From positions 1-38,757 of the forward strand of contig CANGRP010000002.1 of the NCBI GenBank assembly GCA_947456005.1: a stretch of DNA of 38,757 nt. Direction: 5' to 3'. This DNA comes from Caulobacteraceae bacterium. GTDB lineage: Bacteria > Pseudomonadota > Alphaproteobacteria > Caulobacterales > Caulobacteraceae. This document shows, piece after piece, positions 7,284 to 22,817 of the stretch; positions within the stretch are counted from its first letter, which is position 1; every line of letters begins with the position of its first letter. The notes under the pieces are model-generated. The model saw only the letters and a program-made list of their open reading frames with translations, was not told the DNA's origin and ran no database searches. The position numbers and the translations under genes are program-made.

Positions 7284-7378
7284 GGGAAACTCCTGTTGCG
7301 GGCCGATGGGGACCAGACTGCGCCCGTCCTGGCTATCCGTCTATTGGTGATGTGAGTAAGTGAGGTATATGAATCTGT

Positions 7379-8317
7379 ATGGCATCGACCCTGAACGATC
7401 CCCGCCTCGATGGCTTTGACTGGACTCTGGTCCGGAGCTTCCTGGCCGTTCTGGACGCCGGCAGCATGAGCGCTGCGGCCAAGCGGCTGGGGGCGCACCA
7501 GCCCACCTTGTCCCGTCAGGTGGCCATGCTGGAGGCCCAGCTGGGCGCCCCCCTGTTCGAGCGCACCGGGCGCGGGACGGCGCCCACCGCCATGGCTCTG
7601 GCGATCGCCGACGACGCCCGGGCCATGCAGGAGGGGGCCGAGCGTCTGCGCCATCGCCTGACCCGGGCGCGCGCCGAGACGAGCGGAGATGTCCGCATCA
7701 CCACCAGCCAGGTGGCGGCCAGCTACCTCCTGCCACCCGTCCTGGCGGCCCTGCAGGCGGCGGAGCCCGGCATCCGGGTCGAACTGGTGTCGTCCAACCA
7801 GATCACCAACCTCCTGCGGCGGGAGGCCGACATCGCCGTACGCATGGCGCGCCCGGCCCAGGCGTCCCTGGTGGCGCGAAAGCTGGCGGACCTTCCCATC
7901 GTCGCCTGCGCGCACGTCGACTATCTCGCCCGGGCGGGGACGCCGCATACGCCGGCCGACCTGATTCACCACCGCCTCGTCGGCTACGATCGGGATGATG
8001 CTCTGGTGAGGGGATTCGCGTCGGCGGGTCTGCCGATCGGCCGGGAGCAGTTCTTCGTGCGTACCGACGACCAGGTCGCCTATGGCCGGCTGGTGGCGGC
8101 CGGCGCCGGCGTCGGCTTCGTCGTCGCCTACAACCTGCCCTGGCTGCCCGGGGTGGTCCCGGTCCTGCCGGGGATGCGGATCCCGCCCCTGCCCTGCTGG
8201 CTGGCCGTGCACCGCGAGATCCGCGGCAATCCCCTGGTCCGCCGCACCTTCGACATCCTCGCCGAGCAGATTCCGCGGGTGCTGGCGGGGTCTCCGGAAG
8301 TCAGTCTTCAGGATTGA
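7379..8317 (+). CDS. LysR family transcriptional regulator
   Basis: DWTLVRSFLAVLDAGSMSAAAKRLGAHQPTLSRQVAMLEAQLGAPLFERTGRG wHTH followed by an effector domain. Divergent from the SDR gene. Confidence 0.94.
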   Translation: MASTLNDPRLDGFDWTLVRSFLAVLDAGSMSAAAKRLGAHQPTLSRQVAMLEAQLGAPLFERTGRGTAPTAMALAIADDARAMQEGAERLRHRLTRARAETSGDVRITTSQVAASYLLPPVLAALQAAEPGIRVELVSSNQITNLLRREADIAVRMARPAQASLVARKLADLPIVACAHVDYLARAGTPHTPADLIHHRLVGYDRDDALVRGFASAGLPIGREQFFVRTDDQVAYGRLVAAGAGVGFVVAYNLPWLPGVVPVLPGMRIPPLPCWLAVHREIRGNPLVRRTFDILAEQIPRVLAGSPEVSLQD

Positions 8318-8323
8318 ACCGGA

Positions 8324-9040
8324 TCAGTACTCGATCTTCACGGGGGCGTCGAAGGACAGCACGTCGGCGTCGGCGCCGTAGGTCGCCCGCACTCGGGCCC
8401 GCCAGGCGGGGCTGAACCAGGCGTCGGCCTTGGCCTTGTCGGCGAAGACGTAGACGCCGCCAAACCGGCCGTCCTCAGCGATGGAGCACCACTTGTGGAC
8501 GAGGCCCGGCGTCGCGGCGTAGGTCGGCGCCGCCTGCTCGAACCCGGCGAGGATGGCGCTCCGTGGCGTTCCGGCCGGGGGCGTGATGCGGACGATGCGG
8601 ATCACCTCGCCGCCCTTGCGCAGATCCGCGGTCCCTGCGGCGGGCCCGTTGATCGCCAGAGGGATCTCGAACCGGGTGACGGAGCGCTCACCCGCCGCCC
8701 CTGCGCTGATCTCCGCCAGAAGGGGACTGGCCAGATAGGCGTCGGCGGCGGCCTTGTCGGTCCAGAGGTAGACACCGCCATACGTCCTCCTGTCCGAGAT
8801 CACGAAGTACTTCGCCCGGAGGCCCGGCGCTTCGGCGTACCTTGGGATCAAGGCCTTGAATCGACCGATGACGATGGGCCGCGGGGCAAAGCCGGGCAGG
8901 TCACGCTCAAGGACCAGGGCGTACAGGTTCCGGCCTGTGCCGAGCTGAGGCGGCGCCGGTTCGGTGCAGGCTGCCGTAGCGCCGAGAATAGTGAAAGCGG
9001 CGAGGGGAAGCAGAACCTTCTCAAGTGTCTTGGTCAGCAT
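8324..9040 (-). CDS. Putative lipoprotein with two tandem ferredoxin-like/antibiotic monooxygenase-type (YdhR-like) domains
   Basis: Start MLTKTLEKVLLPLAAFTILGATAACTE with a lipobox-like region. Two homologous halves: RRTYGGVYLWTDKAAADAYLASP and DGRFGGVYVFADKAKADAWFSPA. Confidence 0.7.
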   Translation of the reverse strand: MLTKTLEKVLLPLAAFTILGATAACTEPAPPQLGTGRNLYALVLERDLPGFAPRPIVIGRFKALIPRYAEAPGLRAKYFVISDRRTYGGVYLWTDKAAADAYLASPLLAEISAGAAGERSVTRFEIPLAINGPAAGTADLRKGGEVIRIVRITPPAGTPRSAILAGFEQAAPTYAATPGLVHKWCSIAEDGRFGGVYVFADKAKADAWFSPAWRARVRATYGADADVLSFDAPVKIEY

Positions 9041-10371: not shown

Positions 10372-11292
10372 ATGACCGGGAAGCCCCCTCCGTCCCTGGC
10401 TGCGCTCCGCGCCTTCGCCGCCGCCGGACGGCTGCAGAGCCTTCGGGACGCCGCCCGGGAGCTGAACGTCACGGCTTCGGCGGTCAGTCACCATGTGCGC
10501 GCGCTGGAGGACTGGCTCAACGCCCCCCTGTTCCTCAGGTCGACCCGACAGGTCCGGCTCACCGAGCAGGGTCGTCGTTTGTCGGACCGGCTCAACCGGG
10601 TTTTCACCGAGATCGACCTGGCCCTGACCGAGGCGAAGGGCGCTGCAGGGCCCTCGGTGATCCGGGTCAGCGCCCTGCCCCTCTTCACGTCGGCCTACCT
10701 GATCCCCCGGCTGGCCCGGTTCGAGACCCGGTTCCCAGATGTCTCGATCGAGATCGAGACCAGCCACCGGGTGGTGGACTTCGATTTCGAGGCCGTGGAC
10801 GTGGCGATCCGCAATACCGGGCGACCCACACCGGGTCTGACGGCTCACAAGCTCATGGACCTGCGCACAGTCCCCCTATGTGCGCCCGCCCTGGCTGCGG
10901 AGCTCCGGTCTCCGAAGGACCTGGAACGCGCCACCCTGATCCATATCGCCAGTCGCCCGCGGGGCTGGTCGGAATGGATGGCGGCGCAAGGCCTGTCCGG
11001 CCAGGAGGGACGGTCTGGCGTGATGGTGGACACCCTGCCGGCGGCCCTCGACCTCGCGGCCCATGGCCGCGGGGTGGCCCTGGGCATGACCCCAATCGTC
11101 TGGGACGCCCCGCAGATGCAGGGGCTGATTGTTCCTTTTCCGTCGGTCCCGGTCAGCGCCGGCGCTTACTTTCTTGTGCACAGGCGGCAGGACCGGACCC
11201 ACGAGACCATACAGGCCTTCGTCCGCTGGCTTCGTCAGGAGGTGCGCTCCGACGCCACACGCTTCGCCCGGCAGGGGATGGCCGCCCGCTGA
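10372..11292 (+). CDS. LysR family transcriptional regulator (GcvA-like)
   Basis: PPSLAALRAFAAAGRLQSLRDAARELNVTASAVSHHVRALEDWLNAPLFLRSTRQVRLTEQGRRL. Confidence 0.93.
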   Translation: MTGKPPPSLAALRAFAAAGRLQSLRDAARELNVTASAVSHHVRALEDWLNAPLFLRSTRQVRLTEQGRRLSDRLNRVFTEIDLALTEAKGAAGPSVIRVSALPLFTSAYLIPRLARFETRFPDVSIEIETSHRVVDFDFEAVDVAIRNTGRPTPGLTAHKLMDLRTVPLCAPALAAELRSPKDLERATLIHIASRPRGWSEWMAAQGLSGQEGRSGVMVDTLPAALDLAAHGRGVALGMTPIVWDAPQMQGLIVPFPSVPVSAGAYFLVHRRQDRTHETIQAFVRWLRQEVRSDATRFARQGMAAR

Positions 11293-11329
11293 CCTTAGCC
11301 GGCGCGCGCCAGTGAGGAAGGAGCTGAAG

Positions 11330-11755
11330 ATGGGCTCAATGACAGACGAGATCCCCGAGGGCTTTGGCCCGATCCTGCGCAGCAGCCCGGTGCTGGAGGC
11401 GCTCGGCGGCTTTATGAGCCGGGGCGAGGGCCCCGACCTGGAGGTCGGTCTGATGGTCGGCCCCCACCACCTCAATGCCCGGGGCGGCCTGCATGGCGGG
11501 GTGATCGCCACCCTGCTGGACGTCGCGACGGGCTACATGCTGGTCGCCCGGTCCGGCGGGAAGCGCCGGGTCACCGCGCGCCTGACCGTCGACTACAGGT
11601 CGGGCGCAGCGCCGGGCGAGTGGCTCCAGGTCTATCTCGACCGGGCGGAGGAGGACGGCCGGAAGACCCTGGCGCACGCCCGCCTCATGTCAGGCGAGCG
11701 TCTGGTGGCCGAGGCGAACGTCCTCTTCATCGACGCGGCGCCTGCACGAGATTGA
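11330..11755 (+). CDS. PaaI family (hotdog fold) thioesterase
   Basis: NARGGLHGGVIATLLDVATGYMLVARSGGKRRVTARLTVDYRSGAAPGEW is a typical PaaI hotdog core. Start chosen after GGAAGGAG at 11315-11322. Confidence 0.9.
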   Translation: MGSMTDEIPEGFGPILRSSPVLEALGGFMSRGEGPDLEVGLMVGPHHLNARGGLHGGVIATLLDVATGYMLVARSGGKRRVTARLTVDYRSGAAPGEWLQVYLDRAEEDGRKTLAHARLMSGERLVAEANVLFIDAAPARD

Positions 11756-11778
11756 GGGCGCCGCGCCCACTGGACCGG

Positions 11779-13227
11779 TCAGGCGTCTGAAGGGGCCCAG
11801 TTGCCGTGGAAGCCCGGGGGAATCCGGTGGGGGATTCGGATGGAGGCCTGGGGCGGTCCTTCGAAGTCGTCGGCGTTGAGGATGACGAAGTCGGTCGCCT
11901 CGTTGGGGAGATCCACCACATAGCCCATCAGCCAGCCGTCATCCTCGGTCCGGGCGGTCGGGCGCGGAACAAAGACAAACTCCCCGGGCATGCGGCCCGG
12001 CCCGAAGTCATGAACCTGCCGGGTCAATGTCTCCAGGTCATGCTTGAACAGTCTGGTCTGGCTGGGCGCGGCGGCGTCGAACCCCGCCGGGAGGGCCATG
12101 GTGTAGGCATAGCGATAGGACTTGCCGAGCCGGGTCTCGTTGGGCCGCGGGAACTCCTGGCCATCCGGGTCCATCACCTGCCGGTGCACGGAGCGGGCGA
12201 CGGGGTCGAGGGTCCAGCGTTCGAAGGGCGTGGAGCTCGATGCGGGCCCTTCGACCCGGTCGCCGTCGAACATGGTGTCATGGGCGCAGACATCCAGGAT
12301 GACCTTGCCGTCGTCGGTCTCGTAGCCGTTGCAGGGGTGGAAGACATAGCACGGGGCGACATTGCACCAGATGACATCGTCTGCGGTCCCCGTCTTCGGC
12401 AGCAGCCCCACCCGGGCCTGATGACCCGGGTTCCAGCGATAGGGGAAGCGGTCACCCGCCAGGAGGGTTTTCATGGAAAAGGTCACGGGCAGGTCGAGGA
12501 TGATCACATAGTTCCGGGTGATCATGCAGTCGTGGATCGAGGGGCCATTGCGGACCGGGATGGACAGCTCCCGCGTCACCCGGCCCTCCGGGCTGAGCAC
12601 CACGTGGCGAACGGCGTTCGGGTTGTTGCCTTCATAGCAGATGGCGTGCATCTCCCCCGTATCGGGGTCGCGATGCGGGTGGGCCGTGAACCCGCCCTGG
12701 AGCGTCCCGCCAAACGGGTCATGAGCCAGGGTCTGGAGATTGTCGTCCAGGCGAACGGGATAGGCCCCGGCCTCCACAAGCGCCCAGATAGCGCCGGCAT
12801 GGCCCAGGACATTGGTGTTCACCGTATCACCCAGTCCGTTGCGGGGGCCGGGCGCCTCAGGCTCGCCCAGGGCCTGGGAGACGCCCCGCGAGCGGATCCA
12901 GCGGTTCCGGTACCAAAGGGCCTTGCCATCCTTCAGGCGCACGCCGTGCACCATGCCGTCGCCTGTGAACCAGTGATAGGTGGCCGGGCTGGCCGGGCTG
13001 GCCGGGTTGGGTCCGATCCGCATGTAGCGGCCATCCAGCTCCGGCGGGATGGATCCGGTGACCTCCAGGGTCTCCAGGGTCAGCTCGGCCTCCATCGGTT
13101 TATGGACGCCCTCAAGGTAGGGATTGGAGACCTTCCGGCTCGCCAGGCGTGATCGATTGAAGCCAGCGACGGCGACGATGCCCTTGGTGACCGTGGCGCG
13201 GATCGCGGTTTCGATGGGACTGGACAT
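11779..13227 (-). CDS. Carotenoid oxygenase / lignostilbene dioxygenase family protein
   Basis: 482 aa. RYMRIGPNPASPASPATYHWFTGDGMVHGVRLKDGKALWYRNRW, TAHPHRDPDTGEMHAICYE, SIHDCMITRNYVIILDLP. Confidence 0.94.
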   Translation of the reverse strand: MSSPIETAIRATVTKGIVAVAGFNRSRLASRKVSNPYLEGVHKPMEAELTLETLEVTGSIPPELDGRYMRIGPNPASPASPATYHWFTGDGMVHGVRLKDGKALWYRNRWIRSRGVSQALGEPEAPGPRNGLGDTVNTNVLGHAGAIWALVEAGAYPVRLDDNLQTLAHDPFGGTLQGGFTAHPHRDPDTGEMHAICYEGNNPNAVRHVVLSPEGRVTRELSIPVRNGPSIHDCMITRNYVIILDLPVTFSMKTLLAGDRFPYRWNPGHQARVGLLPKTGTADDVIWCNVAPCYVFHPCNGYETDDGKVILDVCAHDTMFDGDRVEGPASSSTPFERWTLDPVARSVHRQVMDPDGQEFPRPNETRLGKSYRYAYTMALPAGFDAAAPSQTRLFKHDLETLTRQVHDFGPGRMPGEFVFVPRPTARTEDDGWLMGYVVDLPNEATDFVILNADDFEGPPQASIRIPHRIPPGFHGNWAPSDA

Positions 13228-13269
13228 GACGGGCGGCTCCTGCGGTGTGGAGGTTAGAAATCTTACTTT

Positions 13270-13279
13270 GTAAATTTAC
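13270..13279. promoter_or_regulatory. Candidate operator palindrome upstream of the carotenoid oxygenase gene
   Basis: Perfect 10-bp palindrome GTAAATTTAC in the locally AT-rich tract CTTACTTTGTAAATTTACGATTG, about 45 bp upstream of the start at 13227. Confidence 0.4.
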
Positions 13280-13568
13280 GATTGCCTCGCCGTGCTGTCA
13301 AGCGGAGCCTCATCGTTCTGGGGGAAGGACGACGGCCCTTCCGGGTCTACCCCCGGCAGGATCGCCTGCACCCTGGAGGCCACAGCCGGCGCAAGGGCGC
13401 GAAGTCGCAGCGCACTCTGTGCTCACCTTCATAGATTCGAGCGAAGACGCAGGGACGAGGCCCGGTAACGCCGGATGGGACGAACCCGAACGTCGAGTGA
13501 ACAAACAGCTCTTATTCCAGGCGCGCTGTCTGCCCCCTAGATAAGGGGCCAGGCACGGGAGATCGGCT

Positions 13569-14078
13569 ATGGCGAAACGGAAATCGGCCCTGGAACACCT
13601 CGCAGGCGGAAGGACGCCGCACATCATTCACCACATCCCCCCCGGGGCCCCCGGCTACCGTGAGGCCAACGGCGGGGCCATGGTGGTGTCCAGTCCCGCG
13701 GAAGTGGATTCACTGGTCCGACGCTTACAACCGGGCGAACTGATCACCCTGTCGGACCTTCGCTCGGCGCTCGCGCGCCGCCATCAGGTCGCCGTCGCCT
13801 GCCCGGTCTCAACAGCGATCTTCCTGAACATGGCCGCCAGAGCGGCTGAAGAGAGGCGCCATCACGGGGAGGACCTGGCGCAACTCACCCCCTGGTGGCG
13901 CGTGCTGAAGACGGGCGGCTTCCTTAATCCGAAGTTTCCTGGGGGCGTGGAGTTCCAGGCGGCCCGGCTGGCGTCCGAAGGCGTCACGGCCTCGCCCTTG
14001 CGCCGGAGCCTCGCTGTCTTTGACTTCGAGACCCGACGACCTGAGGATGGGCTTGAGACTCGCCTTCCCGTCGACTGA
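13569..14078 (+). CDS. MGMT-like (O6-alkylguanine-DNA alkyltransferase C-terminal domain-like) protein lacking the catalytic Cys motif
   Basis: 169 aa. PGELITLSDLRSALARRHQ resembles the MGMT helix-turn-helix (G.ITTYGDLA.AL). TPWWRVLKTGGFLNPKFPGGVEFQAARLASEGV resembles P(C/W)HRVV..G.L......Q...L..EGV. Confidence 0.65.
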   Translation: MAKRKSALEHLAGGRTPHIIHHIPPGAPGYREANGGAMVVSSPAEVDSLVRRLQPGELITLSDLRSALARRHQVAVACPVSTAIFLNMAARAAEERRHHGEDLAQLTPWWRVLKTGGFLNPKFPGGVEFQAARLASEGVTASPLRRSLAVFDFETRRPEDGLETRLPVD

Positions 14079-20436: not shown

Positions 20437-20517
20437 CACCTCCCCCTGGGGGGAGGAATGAGAGCGCTCAATTGCTCCCCCAAGGGGGAGCTGGCGGCGA
20501 AGCCGACTGAGGGGGTC
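20437..20517. repeat. Dispersed compound palindromic intergenic element (second locus)
   Basis: cacctccccctggggggaggaatgagagcgctcaattgctcccccaagggggagctggcggcgaagccgactgagggggtc. Same order and motifs as 90-168. Confidence 0.85.
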
Positions 20518-20526
20518 TGCGACCCT

Positions 20527-21612
20527 TCAGTCGCCGGGGCGCCGAGCTGGGGGCATGCTGGAGATCCAGGCCTGGACCAGCTCGACCCCCTCCTCGTGGA
20601 CCAGGGTGCGTCCCAGTTCAGGCATCATGACGCCGGGCTCGCCGGAGGCCATGCGGAAGGCCAGGATGGAGCGCTCGGGGTGGCCGGGGTCGATGGCCAC
20701 CGAGAGGCCGCCCGAGCCCCGGCCGGCGGCCACCGGCGGCTTGCCAACGCCCAGGGCGGCGGGCCGGGTCTCGTCCGCCGTCAGGAAGAGGCCTGAATTG
20801 CTCGCCGAGCCCGCCGGGCTGTGACAGTGGCCACAGTTGACGTCGAGGTAGGCCCGGGCGCGGGCCTCCAGGGGCTGGGCTGCATCGTTCCAGGCGGCGA
20901 GGCGGGGCAGGGCCTCCGGGGCAGGCGCGCCCTCCAGAAGGCCAGCCCGGCTCCAAAGGGCGAGCAGATTGGCGCGGCCGCCGCCGGCCTGGGCCACCTC
21001 GTGGTTCAGGTTCCAGGCCTTGGGGCCAATAGGGGAGACCGCGCCTTCGACCTGATGGCAGGTCTTGCACTGGTTCTGGTTAGGCACGGCGTAGTCGAGG
21101 GCGACCTCCCGGCCCCCAGGGTCGGTGAATCGGACCGGCACGCGGGCTCCGGCGCGCTTCAGGACGGCCTCGGTCCCCTCCGCATTCCAGACATAGGTCT
21201 GGGCCGTCCAGCCCAAGGCCTTCCGGATCAGAAGGCGGGTCTCGACCTTGCGCACGTCGTGGTCAGGGCGCCGCAGGTCGGCGGGATAGGCGAAGGTCTT
21301 CACCAGGACGGCGCCCGCCGGGAAGTCGAGGACGCCCGTCGCCGTGTAGCCGATCCGCCGGCCGTGCGGGGTGAAAACGAAGCGGTCCTTTTCCGCATGG
21401 TCGGTGAACAGGGGCGTGACCAGGTCGTAGGGCGCCACCCGGCCGTTGGGCCGGTCGGCGCCGGCGTCCAGGAAGAGGCGATAGTCAGACAGGCGCGGGG
21501 CGGGTGCGTCGGCCAGCACGAGGTCGAGGTTCACCCCGGGCTGGGGGGCGGCGGCGCCCAGGCCCGCCAGAGTGGCGAGCAGGATGGCCGGCGGGAGCAG
21601 GCCTCGCCTCAC
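20527..21612 (-). CDS. Diheme c-type cytochrome-like exported protein (HNE_0200/SO_2930-type family)
   Basis: Signal peptide MRRGLLPPAILLATLAGLGAAA and two CxxCH motifs (NQNQCKTCHQVEGAVSPIGPKAWNLN; DVNCGHCHSPAGSASNSGLFL). ATGA overlap with the upstream beta-helix gene. Confidence 0.85.
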   Translation of the reverse strand: MRRGLLPPAILLATLAGLGAAAPQPGVNLDLVLADAPAPRLSDYRLFLDAGADRPNGRVAPYDLVTPLFTDHAEKDRFVFTPHGRRIGYTATGVLDFPAGAVLVKTFAYPADLRRPDHDVRKVETRLLIRKALGWTAQTYVWNAEGTEAVLKRAGARVPVRFTDPGGREVALDYAVPNQNQCKTCHQVEGAVSPIGPKAWNLNHEVAQAGGGRANLLALWSRAGLLEGAPAPEALPRLAAWNDAAQPLEARARAYLDVNCGHCHSPAGSASNSGLFLTADETRPAALGVGKPPVAAGRGSGGLSVAIDPGHPERSILAFRMASGEPGVMMPELGRTLVHEEGVELVQAWISSMPPARRPGD

Positions 21613-22817
21613 GGGCGGGCGGGCTCAAGGCTGACCGCAGGGGGCTCGGCGAAGGTGGCGTCGATGACGCTGGCGCTCACGGTCGGGGCGGCGGCGTCGA
21701 CCTGGCCCGGGCCCGGGAGGTTCAGGTTCAGGACCGGTCCGTCGGCCAGGCGCACCTTTACCTCTGCGGGCTTGCCGCCGGCGGCGCGCACGCCGTCCCA
21801 GACCAGGGGCGGCAGGGGCCCGCCCAGGGCCTTGGCGATCTCCGGGCCGCCGGGGAACTTCGGATCCCAGCCGTTGCGACCCAATCGGTTGTCGCGGACG
21901 ACGATGTCGCGCGGCAGAGGATTGTACGTCGGGTCATTGAAGGCCTGGGTGTAACTCACCAGCATGACCCCGGCGCTCTGGTTGCCGGAAATCGCGTTGT
22001 CGAAGACATGGACGTTACGGTTGGCCATGACCATCACCCCCGTCCCGTTGGGCACGCTGGCGACGATGTTGCCCTTGGGGGCGAAGTTGGGCGTGTCGTT
22101 GTCCGCAATCCGGTTGCGGAAGACCCGGGTCGAGTGCCCGCCCATCTGCGGCAGGTTGGGCAGGTCGAACACCAGGATCCCGGCGGTGTTGCGGGTGGCG
22201 ACGTTGTCGTGGACGTCGGCGAACATGGAGTTCTCGATCTCGATCCCGGCGACGTTGAACTCCGCCCGGCTGTTGCGGACGATGATGTACCTGGACTGAC
22301 CGACATAGACGCCGGCGTCGGAGGCGCCGCGCACCAGCACTCCGTCAATCAGCACCCTCTGGGAGGAGACCGGATAGACCCCGTAGGCGCCGTTGGTCTC
22401 CTTCGGACCGCCGGTCCACTCGACCCGCAGGTTGAGGTAGCGGATGTCGTCGGCGCCCTTGGACTTGATCCCGTCGCCGCGGGTGTCCTCCACCGCCAGG
22501 TCCTTCACCGTGACCCGGTCGGAGGTGATGAGAAGGCCCTCGCCCGCCCCCTTCTGGCCCTTGAAGGACAGGACGGTGGCGTCCGGTCCGGCGCCGGCGA
22601 CCGTGACCCCGTCTACGTCTAGGGACAGGCCGTCGGTCAGGTCAAAGCGGCCGGCGGCGATCTGCACGGTGTCGCCAGGCCTGGCATCGAGGAGGGCGGT
22701 CTGGAGACGTTCCTGGGCGTCGGGGCCGGGCGTCACCACCAGGGTGGCGGCCTCTACGGCCCCGGAGGCCGACGCAAGCACGGCGGCGACGGCGAGACAG
22801 ACGGTGATCCTGGACAT
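21609..22817 (-). CDS. Exported right-handed parallel beta-helix repeat protein
   Basis: Signal peptide MSRITVCLAVAAVLASASGAVEA. LQTALLDARPGDTVQIAAGRFDLTDGLSLDVDGVTVAGAGPDATVLSF, then repeated turns (VYVGQSRYIIVRNSRAEFNVAGIEIENSMFADVHDNVATRNTAGILVFD...). Confidence 0.88.
   Translation of the reverse strand: MSRITVCLAVAAVLASASGAVEAATLVVTPGPDAQERLQTALLDARPGDTVQIAAGRFDLTDGLSLDVDGVTVAGAGPDATVLSFKGQKGAGEGLLITSDRVTVKDLAVEDTRGDGIKSKGADDIRYLNLRVEWTGGPKETNGAYGVYPVSSQRVLIDGVLVRGASDAGVYVGQSRYIIVRNSRAEFNVAGIEIENSMFADVHDNVATRNTAGILVFDLPNLPQMGGHSTRVFRNRIADNDTPNFAPKGNIVASVPNGTGVMVMANRNVHVFDNAISGNQSAGVMLVSYTQAFNDPTYNPLPRDIVVRDNRLGRNGWDPKFPGGPEIAKALGGPLPPLVWDGVRAAGGKPAEVKVRLADGPVLNLNLPGPGQVDAAAPTVSASVIDATFAEPPAVSLEPARP

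Follow-up and report, generated by a model that had tools for sequence, protein, structure and literature searches.

The two genes described here, which encode an exported right-handed parallel beta-helix protein (P0002) and an exported diheme c-type cytochrome (P0001), are a further member of the already known TIGR03805/TIGR03806 pair, which has no assigned function, and the linkage of the beta-helix and the cytochrome is effectively obligate in the Pseudomonadota sampled. That the two proteins work together is close to certain. Regarding their role, we tentatively favor, at somewhat below an even chance, a periplasmic or outer-membrane redox module where the beta-helix would bind or convert the substrate and the cytochrome would exchange electrons with it. 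Moreover, the comparison of relatives makes the pair testable, providing named invariant residues for mutation, an obligate and sometimes fused linkage, and a MauG-linked sister subfamily.

The features of the pair in the window, which is the whole stretch of DNA analyzed (38,757 nucleotides from a Caulobacteraceae bacterium), are collected in Table 1. For P0002, a TTG codon 39 bases further out is a possible alternative start. The overlap between the genes, given as ATGA in the first-pass annotation, does span four bases but reads GTGA, the downstream start being GTG. Judging from the sequence, this overlap likely leads to translational coupling, and it is the most frequent arrangement of this type of gene pair among the relatives (45 loci). 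As that annotation also stated, two CxxCH motifs are present in one protein, P0001, and the signal peptides ascribed to both proteins agree with their hydrophobic N-termini and A-x-A-like cleavage sites, recognized by inspection. Directly 3' of the cytochrome stop codon, at positions 20448-20521, there is a GC-rich palindromic intergenic repeat, with 65 matches in the draft genome of the host and a second copy at positions 139-168 of the window. A scan of the pair region for promoters and terminators gave nothing useful. The neighbors of the pair in the window are an SSF symporter, TerC, an SDF symporter, an alpha/beta hydrolase, PhyH, and DegT, and no functional clue was found among them.

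Table 1. Coordinates of the beta-helix/cytochrome gene pair and its motifs in the window
Feature	Position	Strand	Description
Beta-helix gene P0002	21609..22817	-	Exported right-handed parallel beta-helix, 402 aa, TIGR03805; ATG at 22817; first of the pair
Cytochrome gene P0001	20527..21612	-	Exported diheme c-type cytochrome, 361 aa, TIGR03806/SO2930 family; GTG at 21612; second of the pair
Four-base stop/start overlap GTGA	21609..21612	-	Joins P0002 and P0001; basis, sequence
E193-I194-E195-N196 codons	22230..22241	-	Invariant acidic motif, PB1 sheet of P0002
First heme motif CKTCH	21055..21069	-	P0001 residues 182-186
Second heme motif CGHCH	20821..20835	-	P0001 residues 260-264

The search with the corresponding hidden Markov models confirms the assignment to both families made in the first-pass annotation, as both scores lie above the curated cut-offs. 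P0002 matches TIGR03805 (beta_helix_1) with 423.1 bits (E = 5.9e-127, residues 38-343 on model positions 1-314; cut-off 141.5 bits) and also PF13229 Beta_helix in Pfam, and P0001 matches TIGR03806 (HNE_0200/SO2930) with 396.5 bits (E = 7.8e-119, residues 38-353 on model positions 2-314; cut-off 313.3 bits). These E-values, the confident structure model of the beta-helix (see below), and the presence of the pair in many other loci speak against a chance resemblance. The right-handed beta-helix proposed at first reading is maintained as well, but its turns are mainly N-x-x-G-I (NVAGI, NTAGI) and not N-x-x-x-G-I. Among the matches listed, the closest relatives of the window pair come from Phenylobacterium and other Caulobacteraceae.

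TIGR03806 is present above its cut-off in 44 of 398 Pseudomonadota genomes, and a pair-by-pair comparison of coordinates places TIGR03805 immediately adjacent or in the same frame in all of them (44/44). The remaining nine genomes with TIGR03805 carry either fusions with TIGR03806 domains below the cut-off (three genomes) or a solo subfamily (six genomes). Also, in a set of 60 related genomes, TIGR03805 accompanies above-cut-off TIGR03806 in 31/31 cases, with one extra TIGR03805 located where a 5.5-kb contig ends, and a further gammaproteobacterial sample gives the same picture of linkage. The association is stronger than the recurring two-gene pair that the first-pass annotation had claimed: the co-occurrence survey that it called for gives adjacency or fusion in every sampled genome with above-cut-off TIGR03806, and each gene regularly occurring alone was not found in Pseudomonadota. 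The pair is accessory, being present in about half of the genomes of the same genus, it is conserved in more than 100 other loci, and it is retained in a genome of 1.3 Mb (G678, L192). The pair is widespread, one genome scan giving at least 565 beta-helix relatives, and the 80 named loci are those with the best scores, mainly from alphaproteobacteria. The exceptions to this scenario are a TIGR03805 protein from Hymenobacter (Bacteroidota, L111), with no heme gene within 12 kb, and a TIGR03806-like protein from a myxobacterial plasmid (L214), located beside another cytochrome, of the c553 type; phyla other than Pseudomonadota were sampled through plasmids only.

Gene fusions and a matching lipobox status also back the coupling of the partners. 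The fusions are single-frame, with the beta-helix first and the cytochrome second as in the gene order (L069-L074, L197, and L198), having 881 residues in Shewanella-like genomes and 909-1044 residues in other gammaproteobacterial lineages, and the tree indicates one or two origins for them. Concerning the anchoring, a simple scan assigned a lipobox to both partners in 18 cases and to neither in 79, with a mixed status in nine (Fisher p = 2e-12, with kinship not corrected for). In L197, a gene for a DUF6351 tannase-like lipoprotein (10820-13702) is found 68 bases upstream of the fusion, and in L074 a gene for a FadL/Toluene_X outer-membrane transporter (7298-8593) precedes it by 27 bases. TIGR03806-like domains also occur without TIGR03805, in large proteins where they are joined to domains of the GSDH (glucose/sorbosone dehydrogenase) type. 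Two very large proteins (L077, 6379-13488; L078, 6719-13192) combine CBM26 (starch-binding), GSDH, a TIGR03806-like diheme region, and DUF1592/1588.

A third conserved partner was sought around the pairs and none is common to all, with pntAB-like, Asp/Glu racemase-like, and other genes recurring only through lineage synteny; likewise, no glycan-utilization or degradation locus recurs around the proteobacterial pairs. Some neighbors recur but are limited to certain lineages: an alpha/beta hydrolase is the next gene downstream in 10 loci, a TetR regulator is divergently oriented in 12, and DUF2147 is at no more than two genes from the pair in 16, these counts being obtained with our own gene caller, which uses a GC3 criterion against antisense shadow ORFs, and including close relatives. 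The order and orientation of the DUF2147 genes vary (L176, 9012-9431; L192, 12691-13176; and 14 other loci).

The AF2 model of P0002 (mean pLDDT 93.4) has as neighbors among the solved structures 8jaz (TM 0.56), AlgE4 (TM 0.52-0.53), the RbmB lyase, which gives the lowest E-value, and other alginate epimerases and lyases, although such TM values (0.3-0.56) are in part what any beta-helix would give. Since these neighbors are glycan-active beta-helices, a glycan or uronate substrate is plausible for the pair, as a guess. The oxidative glycan processing proposed in the first-pass annotation thus has indirect support, from these folds and from the GSDH fusions of TIGR03806-like domains, but the neighborhoods of the proteobacterial pairs and the residues of the site, which include no invariant match to the catalytic Lys/Arg of the PL6 lyases, do not add to it. 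Also, a family-wide profile finds AlgE4 (E = 2.2e-6), with the site region aligning at a mere 0.6 bits. A single-sequence search of P0002 against solved structures returned WD40-type matches, which were discarded as chance only.

Across 131 loci of three architectures, eight residues of the beta-helix are invariant (Y145, P149, D167, Y171, G173, E193, E195, and N196). The secondary structure assigned to the model puts E193 and E195 on the PB1 strand 190-195, and PB1 is the sheet that bears the active sites in alginate epimerases and PL6 lyases. In the model, the groove site of P0002 is placed like the active sites of these enzymes, and which PB1 side chains face outward is a reading of the strand register. 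A comparison with a distant beta-helix from Persicobacter (outgroup L212), with no heme gene nearby, reveals the loss of D167, Y171, E193, and E195, together with the conservation of N196, N205, N210, N235, N240, and much of the Asn ladder. Moreover, the Hymenobacter relative mentioned above retains D167, Y171, E193, E195, and N196. Taken together, this loss and this retention indicate that the invariant residues are neither needed for the fold nor strictly tied to a heme partner, and the acidic site kept in Hymenobacter suggests that the site may not be redox-linked.

Beta-helices often act as binding scaffolds, and P0002 could be a non-catalytic scaffold, or a platform that binds the wall or LPS, anchoring a diheme peroxidase or redox sensor in the envelope. 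In agreement with this, a classical catalytic set is not recognizable, and the paired partners are alike in their type of anchoring. However, the invariant Y-D-Y-E-E-N cluster exceeds what a scaffold needs, and the Persicobacter outgroup illustrates that much of the ladder can be kept without the cluster. We consider a scaffold role rather unlikely.

For P0001, the AF2 model (pLDDT 87.6) comprises an N-terminal, mostly beta region (residues ~59-176) and a C-terminal heme region. The fold search with this model gave no match in the PDB (best E 0.057) or among viral structures (best E 0.042), and the single-sequence search against solved structures gave nothing. Beyond the CxxCH motifs, M330 is the sole invariant candidate for a distal-type ligand in the relatives of P0001, and none of their other His or Met residues is fully conserved. 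With M330 alone invariant, one heme is probably His/Met-ligated and the other open or unusually ligated, as far as residue conservation tells, and the ligand-poor heme may be the reactive one.

The solo TIGR03805 proteins (~460-525 residues), which occur without TIGR03806, form one clade in the tree (support 98/98), and both members scanned with Pfam have a C-terminal cytochrome c domain. A MauG/MbnH-like diheme gene is present at no more than two genes upstream in 9/9 of the solo loci versus 0/122 of the other loci. A cytochrome c4-like gene is also found in five of the nine, and in four of these five cases it follows a TonB-dependent receptor and one more gene (an AraC-type regulator in L105). 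Then, a heme partner is always kept in the proteobacteria sampled, although it is not always the same one. The locus L105 (8606-15855) presents an operon-like array of a TonB-dependent receptor, an AraC-type regulator, a c4-like gene, a MauG/MbnH-like gene, and the beta-helix with C-terminal cytochrome c, and similar arrays are observed in L108, L210, and L211. This array has the appearance of a redox operon linked to uptake, and no description of it was found.

The MauG-linked solo clade suggests the main alternative newly weighted in this work, namely that the diheme partner matures the beta-helix. In this case, P0001 would be a MauG-like cytochrome whose ligand-poor heme oxidizes at least one aromatic side chain of the beta-helix into a protein-derived cofactor, the beta-helix being the mature enzyme. 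The upstream MauG/MbnH-like gene of every solo locus and the heme of P0001 with no conserved His/Met distal ligand are consistent with this, as are Tyr145 and Tyr171, invariant in all loci, and Trp134 and Tyr148, which come close to invariance in the pairs and fusions. Nonetheless, P0001 has no bCCP/MauG family similarity, with no match to PF03150 CCP_MauG in Pfam or NCBIfam and no MauG-like fold match. Also, Trp134 is mostly replaced by D and Tyr148 by F in the solo subfamily, which leaves only the Tyr residues as potential shared targets of oxidation. We regard such maturation as distinctly doubtful.

The nearest named relative of the diheme partner of the solo subfamily is MbnH, which belongs to copper acquisition. 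This would fit a NosD-like metal (copper) module, where the beta-helix would load or reduce the metal for uptake by a TonB-dependent receptor, and also in line with it are a weak NosD likeness of P0002 (TIGR04247, 33.6 bits; PF05048, 46 bits) and the presence, in several lineages, of one subclass of TonB-dependent receptors close to the pair or to the solo form (12/509 near versus 10/1100 far positions). However, the TIGR04247 score is far under the cut-off of 300, the 131-locus alignment has no conserved His/Met/Cys set on the beta-helix, and the receptor enrichment is modest, such receptors being abundant in the host lineages. We hold a metal-loading role to be highly improbable.

In the redox module that we prefer, the two genes would give a single exported unit, with the beta-helix facing the substrate. 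Its PB1 groove, with Y145, D167, Y171, E193, E195, and N196, probably accommodates a substrate that is anionic or polyhydroxylated, and a metal ion may mediate the binding. The cytochrome would dock on the beta-helix and electrons would pass between the substrate and the periplasmic cytochrome pool, the His/Met heme of P0001 being the one predicted to serve electron transfer. From this picture, we infer the physical complex, the catalysis by the beta-helix, and the direction of electron flow. Speaking against it are the gene neighborhoods, which point to no substrate, the acidic site kept in Hymenobacter, and the failure to find invariant residues that match the catalytic Lys/Arg of PL6 or the His of AlgE. 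A more specific version, in which dehydrogenase or oxidase activity resides in the beta-helix itself, with a glycan- or uronate-type site and a dedicated diheme acceptor, as a so far undescribed enzyme class, is unlikely. If true, this enzyme would be wired in a second way in the MauG-linked subfamily, and the fold of the diheme acceptor would be new among solved structures.

In L069 (9622-13565), the Shewanella-like beta-helix/diheme fusion, a lipoprotein of 881 residues, is followed by a second TIGR03806 gene, which is found downstream of the fusion in two of three such genomes. The fusion-bearing Shewanella-like genomes also have MtrC/OmcA decaheme homologues and a DUF3083 gene upstream of the fusion. 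From gene order and gene content, the fusion and the second cytochrome are probably SO_2931 and SO_2930, respectively. The literature counts SO_2931 as the fifth of the outer-membrane cytochromes (PMC12175506, PMC5357785, PMC10986466), and a cathode study deleted it along with six further genes (PMC5829830); the mutant loses seven genes at once and so says nothing on SO_2931 alone. No paper assigning a function to the pair was found, SO_2930 and SO_2931 appearing only in cytochrome lists and tables.

Following the classification of its probable homologue SO_2931, the pair could be an outer-membrane terminal for extracellular electron transfer, that is, a metal or mineral reductase, and the Shewanella-like genomes with the lipoprotein fusion and the second TIGR03806 gene would agree with it. 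P0001 has no NCBIfam match to the MtrC/OmcA-type decaheme family TIGR03507. Moreover, the cytochrome has two hemes only, a conduit porin is not linked, and the carriers sampled are mostly alphaproteobacteria whose neighboring genes do not hint at mineral respiration. Considering also that the cathode mutant combines seven deletions, we judge this role very unlikely. For the Shewanella protein itself, counted as an outer-membrane electron-transfer cytochrome, the comparison suggests that it is really a beta-helix/cytochrome fusion.

When the window pair is compared with the TIGR03805/TIGR03806 pair as known, gene order and overlap are alike and nothing essential differs. The window copy is of the soluble type, without a lipobox, whereas many gammaproteobacterial copies are lipoproteins. 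The form like SO_2931/SO_2930, the latter being in Shewanella oneidensis the namesake of the cytochrome family of P0001, is a lipid-anchored fusion with a second cytochrome behind it, whereas the window genes are separate. Regarding the MauG/MbnH diheme enzymes, such a partner adjoins the beta-helix in the solo subfamily, but P0001 itself is no member. NosD is an exported beta-helix with a weak profile likeness to P0002, but no nos genes were seen nearby. AlgE4 is a right-handed beta-helix like P0002, and the invariant residues of P0002 are on the same sheet, whereas P0002 has a heme partner. The catalytic residues of AlgE are Tyr149, Asp152, His154, and Asp178, located in the beta-helix cleft (PMC7385640). 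D178 of AlgE4 falls at the position of E195 in a weak alignment, whereas Asp152 and His154 have no evident counterpart, no His being conserved in P0002. Finally, in the PL6 lyases, the Brønsted base and acid of ChSase B6 are Lys248 and Arg269 (PMC9103228), and no invariant Lys/Arg follows E193-x-E195 in P0002. Nonetheless, the active cleft of PL6 enzymes contains a Glu-x-Glu motif (Glu241 and Glu243; PMC9103228), and in these lyases (chondroitinase B and alginate lyases) it is placed like E193-I194-E195 on the PB1 strand of the P0002 model.
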